Shown here: positions 19,917-25,931 of the stretch, one piece after another | How the letters are laid out: each line of letters opens with the position of its first letter | Position numbering within the stretch: the stretch's first letter is position 1 | NCBI RefSeq assembly: GCF_012849055.1 | Contig: NZ_CP051677.1 | Span: 5,471,001-5,535,000 of the forward strand | Reading direction: 5' to 3' | Source of the DNA: Spirosoma rhododendri | GTDB lineage: Bacteria; Bacteroidota; Bacteroidia; Cytophagales; Spirosomataceae | Length of the DNA: 64,000 bases | Translations under genes and position numbers: made by a program | Notes under the pieces: generated by a model | The model's input: only the letters and a program-made list of their open reading frames with translations | Told to the model about the DNA's origin: nothing | Database searches by the model: none

Positions 19917-19958
19917 AACCCCGATTGTACCGTTTGTCAACGCGGTACGATCGGGGTT
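19917..19958 (+). terminator. Bidirectional terminator
   Basis: Arms 19917-19932 and 19943-19958 form a 16-bp stem with one G-T pair. The T/A-rich flank follows on the plus strand. It separates the convergent carboxypeptidase and usher-like genes and overlaps the usher-like stop codon. Confidence 0.8.
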
Positions 19959-22713
19959 ATTTGCTGGTTGAGAACCGTTTTATCTCGACCGGCCGGGTTG
20001 ATCCGTCAACGGTCCAGTCGATGGCGGGGTACTGGCCGGTGTTGCTCACCGTCAGGGAAAGTGCTTTGACGGTCGTGTGCGGCTGGCGACCGTAGTCGTG
20101 GAGCAGCAGTGTGTACGTCCCCGGCGACAGGTGTACCGAAAACGTACCGTCGGGCAGGGGCGCAACGGTAGCAATCGATTGCTGATTTTGCCGGACGTCG
20201 AGGCTGAACCGGCTGAACTGACAGGGCTGGTGGTCGTATGCACTGGTCTGGCATTGCAGCCGCCCGGCAATACGAAACGTTCTCGACAGGGGCACCTCTT
20301 TGCTGACGGACCGGACGATGGTTAGTTGCTCCTGGTACAATACTGGATCACCGATCCGACCGGTACTGATCGCCGAAACAGCGTACGTCCCCGGTGGTAT
20401 GTGGCGGTAGACGACGCGGCCGCTGGCGTTGGTCAGCAACGTGTTGTCATTGACCCGAACGAGCAGGCTGTCCATCCATCGCTCGTCGGCATCGCGGCTG
20501 CCGTTGCCGTTGGCATCCTCAAAGAAAGCGAGCTGTAGTTTACCGTGCCGTTTGGCCTGCAAGCGGTTGAACCGCTGCACAATCTCCATCCGGTACTGGC
20601 TGTAGGCAAACTCCGGCTGCTCGCTATACGGCGTCCCGTTACCCGACAGGTAGACCGACAGATTGGGCGTAGCGTCGTACTGCACCCGGCCAACGGCGGT
20701 GTACCGGGCATCTGTCGTGGTGGCGTTGTACAAGTAATTCAGCCCGACCGACCCGCTGAGCCGCCTGTTGAGCAGCGCGAAGGAAACCGTTGGCGTCAGC
20801 GACGTCGTCGTAATCAGGCCGGGGTAAGTCGTTCGCAGGTCAAACAGATAGTAAGGCCCTTTCTGCCAGTACCCCCACACGTTGAACCGGCCAATGCCGA
20901 GCGACGATACGACCCGCTGACTAAGGATTCCTGCCGACGGCCCCTGATCGGTACGACCATAAAATCGGCCGACGTCGTACGTCAACTCAAGATACTGATC
21001 GGATCGGCGTCGGTACGCAATGACCGGGGCAAGCCGGAATGCATCGGCGCGCTGACTGACTGGATTTTCTTCGTCGCGCTGCGAGAACCAGTACGGTCGG
21101 GCACTCATCGTCAGCGAGCCAATACGGTGACTCATACTTACTTCGGCGACTGCATTACCAAATCGATGCCGCGCAAAGTCAGTCGGCGACGTGTAGGCAA
21201 CGCGGTCATACGACAGGTAATTGAGCCGGGCCAGCACGGTGGTAACGGGCGCCGGTTGCCAGAAAAGCTGGCTATACAGCAGTGTCGCGCCCCGTTGCAG
21301 GCCAGCATAGGCCGGACTGCTTTTGTACGAACGCAGTTGCCAGCTAAACCTCTCCCGCTGATACGCGTACTCCAGTTGCCCCGCCCAGCCAGTCACCTGC
21401 GCCGACGAAGCACGATGCGGGGCAAATTCCACGCTTTGCCCGGCCATGATTTGCATCGAATGCCGGTCGCTATGGTTGTATCGAAACGACGCGAACGTAA
21501 GGTAGCCCGCCCGCTGAACATCGGCCAGCGTGTAATGGCTCGTGCTCAGCGACAAAGCCGCCCCCGGCAGTTTCGCCAGCTGTCGGTCGTACCGGGCCGA
21601 GTACACATTGCCCCGCCAGGCATTTCGGTCGCTACTGAGCCAGTTATGATTGGCGTTGACCGCCCAGAATGTCCATTGCCGGTCGGTAGGCCCGGTGCTT
21701 ATTTTTAACCCACGACCAAAAAGCGGCAGTTCGTGAAAATCGTAGACACTTCCCAGCCGAACGGCCGTCTGCGCTGTCGTGAGGGCGATGTACGAATTTT
21801 GCAGCTGGCGAAAGTGATCGGTTCCGTAATCGAGATAATGTAGATTCATCTCAAGCCGGGCCTTACCAACGGAGTCTGTTCCCCAGACGCGTGTTTCGCG
21901 CGCCCACTGGTTGGTGCTAAACCGCGTAAGCGCCACACTGGCTCCGTAGCCAGACCCGGTCGTTGGCAGCGCATCCTGATACACTTTATCGGCCACGGCA
22001 ACCACCATTTTATAGACCACACTACCAACAATCGCCTTCTGACGATCTCTGACCGTGACGATCAGCTGGTAGGGCGTATTGGCCGACCATTGCCGCAGCG
22101 GGACGGCGGTAACAGTCAGTATGGTATCCTGACGCGGTTTCAGGGCAATCGTCGTGGGAAACGAAGCGGGGGCCATCCCCTGCGGCAGTGCCGATATTTC
22201 GATCGTGTATGTTTCTGCGTCGGCCCGGTTGTGCGTCAAATGCAGGGGCAACCGAGCTGCGTCATTGGCGGCATACAGCAGCATTGTTTCCTGCGGAGTG
22301 TATAAACTGACGGCCGCCGTCACGGACCCCTTCGCGATTAGCTGACACGCGACGAACTGAATCGGATTACCGGCAGCGTCGCTCATCCGGACACGAACGG
22401 GTGCATTTGCCGAGATTATCTGCCGATGCAACAGCCCTTTGATCGGGATCAGCCGCTTTTCGCCAGGTGCCAGTTGTAGCTTATCGGGTACGCTGGCCAA
22501 CATGGTCACGGCTTCGGGCGAATCGATGGCCAACCGCACATCCTGCGGCTTCGTACCTGTATTTGTTAACGTGAGTTGATTGGTAAATGTACTGCCGGTT
22601 ACGATGGTAATAGAATCGCGCAAAATCGAGATCGATACAGACTGAGCATTACTTCTAATTGACCAAAATAATAGCACTACTATGTATACGAAAATCCTAT
22701 TTATGTTTATCAT
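19957..22713 (-). CDS. Usher-like outer-membrane protein
   Basis: 918 residues. A signal peptide ends about SIRSNAQ. Two beta-sandwich regions (about 25-240; NQLTLTNTGTKPQDVRLAID, LAPGEKRLIPIKG) precede a long region of alternating-residue strands (about 250-700), as in a large barrel. The C-terminal domains include FEDANGNGSRDADERWMD (about 730-750, an SdrD/calcium-loop type) with GRVVYRHIPPGTYAVSAI, then another beta-sandwich. Size and plan match fimbrial ushers, though no FimD-family sequence signature was recognised. It is transcribed divergently from a pilin/chaperone/pilin operon, which is the main support for an usher role. Confidence 0.6.
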   Translation of the reverse strand: MININRIFVYIVVLLFWSIRSNAQSVSISILRDSITIVTGSTFTNQLTLTNTGTKPQDVRLAIDSPEAVTMLASVPDKLQLAPGEKRLIPIKGLLHRQIISANAPVRVRMSDAAGNPIQFVACQLIAKGSVTAAVSLYTPQETMLLYAANDAARLPLHLTHNRADAETYTIEISALPQGMAPASFPTTIALKPRQDTILTVTAVPLRQWSANTPYQLIVTVRDRQKAIVGSVVYKMVVAVADKVYQDALPTTGSGYGASVALTRFSTNQWARETRVWGTDSVGKARLEMNLHYLDYGTDHFRQLQNSYIALTTAQTAVRLGSVYDFHELPLFGRGLKISTGPTDRQWTFWAVNANHNWLSSDRNAWRGNVYSARYDRQLAKLPGAALSLSTSHYTLADVQRAGYLTFASFRYNHSDRHSMQIMAGQSVEFAPHRASSAQVTGWAGQLEYAYQRERFSWQLRSYKSSPAYAGLQRGATLLYSQLFWQPAPVTTVLARLNYLSYDRVAYTSPTDFARHRFGNAVAEVSMSHRIGSLTMSARPYWFSQRDEENPVSQRADAFRLAPVIAYRRRSDQYLELTYDVGRFYGRTDQGPSAGILSQRVVSSLGIGRFNVWGYWQKGPYYLFDLRTTYPGLITTTSLTPTVSFALLNRRLSGSVGLNYLYNATTTDARYTAVGRVQYDATPNLSVYLSGNGTPYSEQPEFAYSQYRMEIVQRFNRLQAKRHGKLQLAFFEDANGNGSRDADERWMDSLLVRVNDNTLLTNASGRVVYRHIPPGTYAVSAISTGRIGDPVLYQEQLTIVRSVSKEVPLSRTFRIAGRLQCQTSAYDHQPCQFSRFSLDVRQNQQSIATVAPLPDGTFSVHLSPGTYTLLLHDYGRQPHTTVKALSLTVSNTGQYPAIDWTVDGSTRPVEIKRFSTSK

Positions 22714-23013
22714 AATACAGCCTTATTTTTCTTCATACCGCTGACGCACAGGAGAAAATCAGACTACAAGTTTTGCACCAATCAATTGTCTACAAATCAT
22801 TTATTTACAGTTACTTAGCTTATTTTTCTAACTTTATCTAAGCATAAATTATCAGCAGATAACGCCCAAAAACTGTTTTCTACAAAATCAATTTATCGCT
22901 TACTAACAATGTATTTTTTCGTAATTATTAGTAGTATTTCTGGCAAAAAAATTGTTCACCAAGATTCAATTTTAAGTACATTTTATATTTCATTTTATTA
23001 AATCTTATACCGC
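22714..23013. promoter_or_regulatory. AT-rich divergent promoter region of the fimbrial locus
   Basis: This 300-nt gap between the usher-like gene and the subunit gene is markedly more AT-rich than its surroundings, with homopolymer A and T tracts. It should hold both divergent promoters. On the plus strand, TTG at 22952-22954 and TACATTTT at 22977-22984 approximate the Bacteroidota -33 and TAnnTTTG -7 elements, 22 nt apart. The match is partial. Confidence 0.4.
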
Positions 23014-23029
23014 ATGAAAACCTCTTTTA

Positions 23030-24094
23030 TTGATGCGTGAGTAAGTCCATAAAGGTTTATGCTTTAGCTCTTGATGGCTATCTATAAACAAGCGGATTAC
23101 GAAGCGCTGCGTCGGCGGTGCGTCGAACTTAAACAGGCAGGCTGGAAACAGGCCGATATTGCTCGGGCCTTTGGCTTGACACAGGGCTGGGTCAGCCAAA
23201 CACTGAAAACCTACCGTGAGCAAGGCGAAGCAGGCCTAATGACCGGTAAACGCACCGGAGCCCCGTCCCGGCTGACGGCGGATCAACTCGACCAACTGAC
23301 AAAAGAACTGGCCAAGGGGGCTGAGCAACACGGTTTTTCAGGCCAAGTGTGGACCCGGCCCCGTATTAATGATGTGATTAACAAGCTTTTTGGTGTTAGC
23401 TATGACCCCTCTCAAATTGGACGGCTGCTTAAGAAAGTAGGCTGGAGTCGGCAGAAACCGGCTCGGCAAGCTCGCCAGCAGGACCCGCAGGCCGTGGCCA
23501 ACTGGCAAGCCGAGCGACTGCCTGCGCTCAAAAAAAGCGCAGATTGAGGGGCGTACGATTCTATACGTGGATGAATCAGCGTGCTATTTGTTGCCTTTTG
23601 TGGCCCACAGCTGGGCACCCCGTGGTCAAACACCGTTGCTTCTGGAACAGGCTGGCCGCGCACATCTCAGCCTGATTGCTGCCATTTCGCCAACAGGCCG
23701 TTTGTATCTAGCGGGGCAGGATCAGCCCTTTACTAGTGACGATATCTGTTGGTTCTTGAGCAAGCTTTGCTGGCAGTATCGCCGTCAAAACATGGTGGTT
23801 GTTTGGGATGGGGCGGCCATCCACCGGTCGCAAACCGTTCGGAACTGGCTCCAAAGCCGACCGGGGCGGGTCCATCTGGAGCGTTTACCAGCCTACAGTC
23901 CCGCACTCAATCCGGTGGAATTAGTCTGGAGCCAGTTGAAGCGATCCTTGAAGAACCGAGTCTTCACAACTCTGGAATCGCTTCAAGCCGCCGTGATGAA
24001 TGAAGTTGATTATTTGCAAGCAGATCGAAATCGTATTCGTTGTTTCTTTCGAAAGAAGGAGATTGCCTTCTTCACAGACTAATTCACGCATCTA
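23030..24094 (+). mobile_element. IS630-type insertion sequence
   Basis: A 1065-bp element flanked by TA on both sides (23028-23029 and 24095-24096), the target duplication of IS630/mariner elements. The ends are imperfect inverted repeats: 23030-23047 matches the reverse complement of 24077-24094 at 15 of 18 positions, with GATGCGTGA shared. It carries one transposase in two frames. The boundaries are supported independently by the restored reading frame of the host gene. Confidence 0.93.
23074..24082 (+). CDS. IS630-family transposase, two frames
   Basis: The first frame (23074-23547, 157 residues) holds an HTH region (QADIARAFGLTQGWVSQTL). The second (through 24082) holds the DDE catalytic domain: ILYVDES, VVVWDGAAIHRS and NPVELVWSQLK give D, D and E. 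The frames join at a run of seven A residues (23530-23536). Skipping one A yields ...LKKAQIEGRTILYVDES without a gap. Either a programmed +1 shift or transcript slippage makes the full protein of about 335 residues, or the run is a disabling mutation. In-frame continuation in the first frame stops 4 codons after the run. Confidence 0.85.
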
Positions 24095-24630
24095 TAAATC
24101 GCTGATTTCTGCTCTGTCAATCGCGTTAGCAGGCATTGCTCTACAGGCTACGCCAGCCCACGCCCAATTACTCACCAGCGGGAACGCCGTCGTCACCGTC
24201 ACAGTCGTTGATGTTCTGTCGCTGGTGGTCGCGGTACCGGCAGTACCGATTGCGATGGGTACACTAAACGACTTTCAAAACGGCTCCAGCTTTACAGCCC
24301 CTGCGCAACTGGTTGCCAGCAGCAACCGCCCGTATGATATCAAGGTGAAGTCGGATGGCGACTTGCAGGGGCAACTGACCGCCACGGGCAGCAGCATCCC
24401 GATCAGTAATATCGTTGTGCAGGCTGCCCCAACGCTTACGGCGACTTACACGTCCCCGCTGAACCTGTCGGCTGCCGACCAGGTACTAATTTCCAATGCG
24501 CCCGGCGCGATGGCCAAAGTCTACGACGTGAAGTATTCGACGGCGGCCAATAATGCGGCTTTCTTCGTTAAAGGCGGTGCTTATACAGCCACGCTGACCT
24601 ATTCCATCACCGCCCGCTAACACCGACGGC

Positions 24631-25446
24631 ATGACTCAGTTTTCCCGATCGACGGGGTGGCGGCTGCTGCTGATACTGTGCCTGATAGAACCCTTGTTCT
24701 GTCAGGCACAGATTGGTTTTCAGGCATCGCCAGCCAAACTTTATTTTAACCAGACCACTGGCGACGAGCAGACGCGTACGCTGCGACTAACGAACCCGAT
24801 GGATACCCGGCTGGTGCTACAGGCCACCTGCGCCGACTGGCGACGCGATTCGTTGGGCGAGAAAGTGTACTACCCGCCAGGTACGCTGCCAACGTCTGGT
24901 TGCCCGCTGGTCAAAGTCATACCGGACGTAATCGAGCTGGCACCCGGCGAGCAGCGGGATGTTCTGGTGTCGCTGACGGCGAACCGGGCCGATAAAGCAA
25001 CCGGCATCAGGAACGGGATGCTGTTTCTGACGCAATCAAATGAGCAGGAAGTGGCCCGTCAGAAAGGGGCCTCGCAGTTTGTCATCAAAGCTCAGATCGG
25101 CGTTCATGTGTATGTGTTGCCCGACGGACATACCGAGCCCGATATTGCGATCGTGGGCATGACGGTCGGGCAGTCGGCACGGCCGTATCAGGTCAATGTA
25201 AAGGTACATAACACGGGTAAGGCGTTGCTGGAAAGCCAGTTGCGCCTGGAATACCTGAACATGACGACGATGGAAGAAGTAAAGACGGAGGCCATACCCG
25301 TCAATACCATGCCCGACGATTCGTTTCAGGTGGCAGCCAGCGTACCGGCTAATCTGTCGGCGGGGAAATACCTGATCGTGGCCGTGCTGGATAGCGGACC
25401 GGGGCAGGCGCTGAAAGTGGCCGAACTCGAAACCGTCCTTAAATGA
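24631..25446 (+). CDS. PapD-like periplasmic chaperone
   Basis: 271 residues with a signal peptide ending about FCQAQ. The N-terminal domain (about 28-165) has the PapD-like layout: FQASPAKLYFNQTTGDEQTRTLRLTNP, then VIPDVIELAPGEQRDVLVSL and FVIKAQIGVHVYVLP. A second Ig-like domain (VKVHNTGKALLESQLRLEYL, FQVAASVPANLSAGKYLIV) follows. Such chaperones hold pilin subunits by donating a strand. The gene sits 10 nt after the split subunit gene and overlaps the next gene by ATGA, so it is in one operon. Homology to PapD is by pattern and is not certain. Confidence 0.7.
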   Translation: MTQFSRSTGWRLLLILCLIEPLFCQAQIGFQASPAKLYFNQTTGDEQTRTLRLTNPMDTRLVLQATCADWRRDSLGEKVYYPPGTLPTSGCPLVKVIPDVIELAPGEQRDVLVSLTANRADKATGIRNGMLFLTQSNEQEVARQKGASQFVIKAQIGVHVYVLPDGHTEPDIAIVGMTVGQSARPYQVNVKVHNTGKALLESQLRLEYLNMTTMEEVKTEAIPVNTMPDDSFQVAASVPANLSAGKYLIVAVLDSGPGQALKVAELETVLK

Positions 25447-25931
25447 ACTGGCGCACCGTTTTATTCGCCCTGTTTCTGCTGCCGGTTGCCCCGGCGGGAA
25501 TCGCCCAGCCCGCCCCGCCCGACGAGTCCGCCTATGCCGCGTCGCTGATCGGCATTACCGTTCTGGGGAATCCGTCGCTGACGGTGTCGAGCGTCGATGG
25601 CTTCACGAATGGCGTAACGGTCAACCACAACACGCTGCAACTGAACCTGTCGCTGGGCCTGACGTGGTCGTTACAGGTACGCGCACTCGACGACCTTCGC
25701 TACCAGTCGTACTCAATTCCGGCCTCAGCGATCGGCATGCAGTCGGCGGGGCTGGGGGCGCGGCCGGAGTTATTGCTAACGACCACCAACCAAACGCTGG
25801 CGTCGGGGGTGGCTACGTCGCTGTTGAGTACCGCGTTACCGATTCGCTACCGCACCGTTGGCGGTAGTGCGTTTCTGAAACCCGCCGGTTCGTACTCAAC
25901 CACCATACTATTCACGTTCACGCCTTTATAG
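25443..25931 (+). CDS. Second fimbrial subunit-like secreted protein
   Basis: 162 residues with a signal peptide ending about AGIAQP. The start overlaps the chaperone stop codon (ATGA), implying translational coupling. The C-terminal strand AGSYSTTILFTFTPL has Gly at -14 and hydrophobic residues at -4, -6 and -8, the same pattern as the split subunit. No sequence similarity to named pilins was recognised. It may be a minor or tip subunit, and is intact while the first subunit gene is not. Confidence 0.65.
   Translation: MNWRTVLFALFLLPVAPAGIAQPAPPDESAYAASLIGITVLGNPSLTVSSVDGFTNGVTVNHNTLQLNLSLGLTWSLQVRALDDLRYQSYSIPASAIGMQSAGLGARPELLLTTTNQTLASGVATSLLSTALPIRYRTVGGSAFLKPAGSYSTTILFTFTPL

Follow-up and report, generated by a model that had tools for sequence, protein, structure and literature searches.

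A probable chaperone-usher-like fimbrial locus with a chaperone-like usher module in Spirosoma rhododendri

A locus in Spirosoma rhododendri (Bacteroidota, Spirosomataceae) very probably encodes the assembly of a fimbria (pilus) by a route working like the chaperone-usher pathway. The locus lies in a 64,000-nucleotide stretch of contig NZ_CP051677.1 (positions 5,471,001 to 5,535,000), here called the window, and consists of a minus-strand gene for a 918-amino acid (aa) protein diverging from three plus-strand open reading frames (ORFs) of 206, 271 and 162 aa. An initial annotation made from the letters and their ORFs had described an usher-sized protein opposite pilin-, PapD- and pilin-like genes, and four genes were found at those places; the ATGA coupling it described was seen as an overlap joining the 271-aa and 162-aa genes (25443..25446). 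None of the four proteins reached a Pfam cut-off and an NCBIfam scan assigned no family to any of them. The 6.05 Mb genome carries a single barrel, a single chaperone and two pilins of this kind. The features are as follows, with coordinates in the window.

22713..19957, minus strand: usher-like outer-membrane protein, 918 aa (ORF)
21964..22644, minus strand: usher residues 24-250, two immunoglobulin-like (Ig-like) domains similar to the chaperone of this locus (hhalign of the family alignment)
20563..21954, minus strand: usher residues 254-717, predicted beta-barrel of 24 long strands (DSSP of the model)
20005..20544, minus strand: usher residues 724-903, predicted beta-strand C-terminal domains (DSSP)
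24000..24620, plus strand: PIL1 ORF, first pilin-like protein, 206 aa (ORF; the native start lies elsewhere)
24631..25446, plus strand: CHAP, two-Ig periplasmic chaperone, 271 aa (ORF, family profile matches)
25443..25931, plus strand: PIL2, second pilin-like subunit, 162 aa (ORF, family alignment)

Barrel, chaperone and pilin-like proteins

The usher profile PF00577 had no matches in the S. rhododendri genome. An AlphaFold2 model of the 918-aa protein (predicted local distance difference test, pLDDT, 81.6; predicted template modelling score, pTM, 0.50) was used for a Foldseek search, in which ranks 1 to 11 were all FimD/PapC ushers (E values of 6.0e-13 to 1.1e-9). The predicted barrel is of the usher type with 24 strands, as DSSP gave, within residues 256 to 715, 23 strands of at least 9 residues and another interrupted at just one residue, a count read from the DSSP list rather than from coordinates and leaving out the shorter pairs 301-312 and 555-570. 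Structural alignment covered 358 residues of the PapC pore and 362 of the FimD pore, each at a root-mean-square deviation (rmsd) of 5.9. No inter-strand gap of near-plug size occurred in the barrel model, and the structure prediction proposed by the initial annotation, for a 24-strand barrel with a plug, thus bore out the barrel and not the plug. The model also points to C-terminal usher domains, with residues 252-902 aligned to FimD 137-833 (rmsd 15.6) and the alignment of six FimD rows extending to residue 902 or 903; among the 50 matches listed, the FimD rows were the only ones aligned through these domains. Weak Pfam matches to CarboxypepD_reg and SdrD_B, below cut-off, fell in the same region. 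A count of amphipathic peaks (24 for the barrel and 25 for FimD) came from a crude method, is shaped by the spacing rule and was dropped as evidence.

The N-terminal part of the protein gave a different picture. The family slice for residues 24-250 matched the chaperone family of the locus itself (hhalign 96.5%, E 7.7e-10) and the FimD set at only 0.2%. As judged from these profiles, the place of the usher N-terminal domain is occupied by a chaperone-like two-Ig module.

A profile of the chaperone family (46 relatives) matched seven E. coli K-12 chaperones including FimC over 208 columns (hhalign 95.0%, E 3.9e-8) while two decoys in the same comparison reached 1.1% and 0.3%, and by sequence comparison the 271-aa protein appears to be a PapD-like two-Ig chaperone. 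The best solved structure for the chaperone profile was EfmWxLIP1, with both domains covered (E 1.3e-5), and a more distant chaperone set (n=13) matched the same structure at E 5.6e-8. With Pfam matches accepted up to an E value of 0.1, WxLIP_PGBD was found in 16 of 27 chaperones including the window protein (best 1.2e-5), PapD_N in 4 (best 0.0016) and Cep192_D6 in 20 (best 9.2e-6), and taken together these matches indicate that the chaperone Pfam signal is in part a general Ig similarity. In the wider set of 13, WxLIP_PGBD occurred in three and WxLIP_HBD in two at E values up to 0.01 (best 1.9e-8). As a family the chaperones are related, in both domains, to the DUF916 plus DUF3324 protein of WxL/WxLIP clusters; the window chaperone scanned by itself against the WxLIP Pfam families gave no match at E values up to 1. 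The positions of the invariant basic pair of PapD and FimC, Arg8 and Lys112, were located via the profile alignment; of 27 chaperones, 18 have K or R in the Arg8-equivalent column, and the Lys112-equivalent column held H in 24 and K in three. Part of the system has already been caught by automatic annotation, since NCBI gives two Spirosoma relatives the name 'fimbrial biogenesis chaperone'.

Other chaperone-like genes were observed in locus L163 (8711-9562 and 15868-16782), where no barrel is labelled alongside and the neighbours are a solute-binding-like protein, a 7TMR-DISM histidine kinase and a response regulator; perhaps the two-Ig fold serves a different purpose there. The locus counts given below leave out L162, L163 and L175, whose chaperone matches have no adjoining labelled barrel.

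Mature PIL1 (24165-24617, 151 aa) was modelled with AlphaFold2 (pLDDT 83.8, pTM 0.77), and a structure search with the model returned the TLP-1a and TLP-1b fibrils (PDB 9ikj and 9ikk) first, followed mostly by chaperone-usher subunits. The pilin family is also related by sequence to TLP-1a/TLP-1b over the N-terminal half; the chains differ in length, at 236-237 aa in TLP-1 and 151 aa in the modelled PIL1. The N-terminal extension of PIL1 was modelled without secondary structure and contains alternating valines. PIL1 combines an incomplete Ig fold with the extension expected of a pilin. PIL2 lacks this extension in the family alignment and returned nothing of note when searched alone against the PDB. 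TLP-1 is presumably one of the filaments obtained from pond water. Filaments solved from this source are described as not conclusively identified in a passage of a 2026 perspective that does not name TLP-1 (PMC12967142).

Genes of 338-478 aa were observed beside the chaperone or the barrel in loci L074, L075, L081, L170, L171 and L188-L192. They encode a C-terminal pilin domain and an extra N-terminal part, which is the layout of a two-domain tip adhesin and suggests that these proteins form tips.

The kinship with EfmWxLIP1 raises another explanation for the locus, in which the 271-aa protein, as a WxLIP relative, would hold small beta-sandwich proteins at the surface of the cell or on its peptidoglycan while the barrel merely anchors or secretes them and no fibre is formed. 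The profile match over both domains and the WxLIP_PGBD and WxLIP_HBD matches among the relatives favour such a WxL-like complex, yet we consider it improbable. Pfam matches of 49 pilin-like proteins (E up to 0.1) included no WxL domain, the pilins match a known fibril, and the barrel, which the WxL/WxLIP clusters of Gram-positive bacteria lack, has a predicted usher fold. No C-terminal transmembrane helix was seen by eye in the window chaperone, unlike WxLIP as described in the consulted part of PMC10599100. The same source (section 2.4) proposes from prediction that WxLIP completes the WxL sandwich with its own strand, which fits a common ancestry of both chaperone types without proving it, and a single mechanism with two branches may underlie both readings.

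Distribution and relationship to FimD-type ushers

Relatives of the window proteins were found in Spirosoma, Larkinella and Fibrella, among others. Of 121 genomes of the family, 27 had the chaperone, and the 22 with the barrel were all among these 27. Loci were fetched from the 26 genomes with the chaperone other than that of S. rhododendri, and every one contained two or more pilin-like genes together with a barrel and a chaperone; in five the barrel was seen only by an iterated profile. This recurrence indicates that the gene set is more than chance. Neither result that the initial annotation had named as refuting, a non-usher fold of the large protein or neighbours that do not recur together, was obtained. 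Gene order varied between related loci. Nine same-genus relatives were listed, four with the locus and five with none, and the locus is therefore accessory. A wider survey of 395 genomes of the phylum gave chaperone alignment matches in 62 and barrel alignment matches in 60. The barrel match started before position 300 in 21 of these 60, the S. rhododendri genome counted, and in all 21 the contig also carried a chaperone match at a distance of under 2 kb. This set was sorted by hand from the match tables, and the other 39 were dropped as none of their listed matches started before 644 and most fell within a common C-terminal domain.

A group of barrels that bridges towards true ushers was found in the same 395 genomes, in which PF00577 gave weak matches in four and none above cut-off. 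All four lay in ORFs of 994-1505 aa directly beside a homologue of the locus's chaperone. The bridge group is probably Balneolaceae. When scanned singly, two of three bridge barrels matched PF00577 (2.2e-4 and 3.2e-4) and the third, from locus L159, had no match at an E value of 0.05. A set of five bridge barrels (the four with weak PF00577 matches and that of L168) matched six FimD-type ushers at 91.8% (E 7.5e-7) over FimD 143-422, the first half of the barrel. U2 and U3, relatives that stand nearer to the window type, matched the same five at 96.6% (E 5.3e-10) over the second half of the barrel and the C-terminus, and a set including the window type did so at 96.3%. The window's own usher subgroup alone reached 3.4% against the bridge barrels and 100% over its whole length against its nearer relatives. 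The bridge thus joins the window type through its second half and FimD through its first, so the link is not strictly transitive. Two bridge ushers (L159 7391-10906 and L160 6058-10575) were also observed to carry SPOR domains (5.5e-23 and 6.8e-15); SPOR domains of other proteins bind peptidoglycan.

The linkage across genera and gene orders, the profile link to the bridge-group barrels and the FimD alignment through the C-terminal domains all make it barely conceivable that the barrel is a porin or transporter standing beside pilin genes by accident.

The profile-profile comparisons proposed by the initial annotation succeeded for the chaperone and failed for the other components, and these failures weigh against a chaperone-usher-like function. 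The window-type usher, whether compared whole or as three slices, had no profile match to FimD, and the pilin family had none to E. coli pilins, so the proposed function rests on comparison. The missing FimD match and the chaperone-like N-terminal module would also suit an independent build from Ig-like and barrel parts that converged on the chaperone-usher plan, an alternative concerning origin that is compatible with the working proposed below. We regard this origin as unlikely given the chaperone-FimC match and the bridge group, albeit that the latter is linked through two different parts of its proteins. Between the divergent and the independently built family that the initial annotation had left side by side, the divergent one is therefore favoured by the chaperone profile match and by relatives with weak PF00577 matches and a FimD profile match; the window-type barrel itself might still be of independent origin.

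An insertion element in the first pilin gene

An insertion element of the IS630 type interrupts the PIL1 gene after codon 5. A pilin gene is indeed present where the initial annotation had placed its 206-aa ORF; the start at 24000 lies inside the element, which was overlooked, and overlaps the second transposase ORF. As the insertion lies after codon 5, that start is not native.

23014..23029, plus strand: native 5' end of the PIL1 gene, start codon and first five codons (sequence, same residues in L059)
23030..24095 (ends approximate), plus strand: IS630-type insertion element (Pfam, inverted repeats, genome copies, TA at ends)
23071-23547 and 23567-24082, plus strand: two transposase ORFs of the element
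24096..24620, plus strand: remainder of the PIL1 gene, with the rest of the signal peptide (read by eye) and the mature part from about 24165

The element encodes the transposase domains HTH_33 (1.7e-20) and DDE_3 (1e-28), is bounded by inverted repeats (23026-23054 and 24070-24098, 79%) and is one of four identical or near-identical copies in the genome, each with TA adjoining both ends. Positions 23014-23028 encode MKTSF, the same first five residues as in Spirosoma oryzae (L059), and the gene is unsplit in relatives. A run of seven A at 23530-23536 was observed close to where the first transposase ORF ends, the second being in another frame, and could serve frameshifting. Because the PIL1 gene is split, the window copy of the locus probably does not work and probably yields no fibre, unless translation uses the start within the element.

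Proposed assembly and comparison with known systems

In an intact locus, the subunits and the chaperone would be exported to the periplasm by signal peptides, which were read by eye. Each subunit would be held by the chaperone lending a beta-strand, as its relationship to FimC and WxLIP suggests, and would then be handed to the outer-membrane barrel of 918 aa and leave through its pore. Polymerisation could proceed by donor-strand exchange with the PIL1 N-terminal extension, given its unstructured state in the model and alternating valines, and PIL2, having no such extension, would come first and so form the tip. More speculatively, the chaperone-like module of the barrel may be where the complex of chaperone and subunit docks, or may act as a gate to the pore.

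The gene set resembles that of the classical type 1 pilus of E. coli K-12 (FimC/FimD/FimA) and shares with it a two-Ig chaperone, a barrel with C-terminal domains and a pilin fold with a free N-terminus. By sequence the usher is not a member of the PF00577 family and differs in its N-domain and plug, its model having no plug-sized insert, and the pilin sequences are unrelated by profile. Among archaic and alternative pili (Csu, CupE, CFA/I and ECP), EcpC resembles the window-type usher at the C-terminus only. EcpC of E. coli K-12 (L184 1308-3833) was observed to match this C-terminus at 50.6-65.2%, above the FimD set, and the U4 relatives at 1.8%. The holders of archaic pili are given in the consulted part of a CupE paper (PMC10104325) as proteobacteria, cyanobacteria and Deinococcota, and the word Bacteroidetes did not occur there.

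In the open-licence literature, as far as its texts were accessible, no description was found of chaperone-usher pili in Bacteroidota or of fimbriae in Spirosoma, and the accessible part of a secretion-system survey (PMC4793230) leaves the chaperone-usher pathway out. The initial annotation mentioned neither the chaperone-like module within the usher nor the TLP-1 link. We lean slightly towards the view that Bacteroidota possess a chaperone-usher class of their own, in which the usher N-domain and plug were swapped for a built-in chaperone-like module, the pili belong to the family of TLP-1 fibrils, and the chaperone and the Gram-positive WxLIP are the ends of one strand-lending family. With at least 21 of 395 genomes of the phylum carrying a linked chaperone and barrel and none exceeding the PF00577 cut-off, the standard profile would overlook a pilus class. 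The chaperone-like module offers a natural test of subunit recruitment by an usher lacking a plug and N-domain, and the link to TLP-1 could identify orphan filaments.
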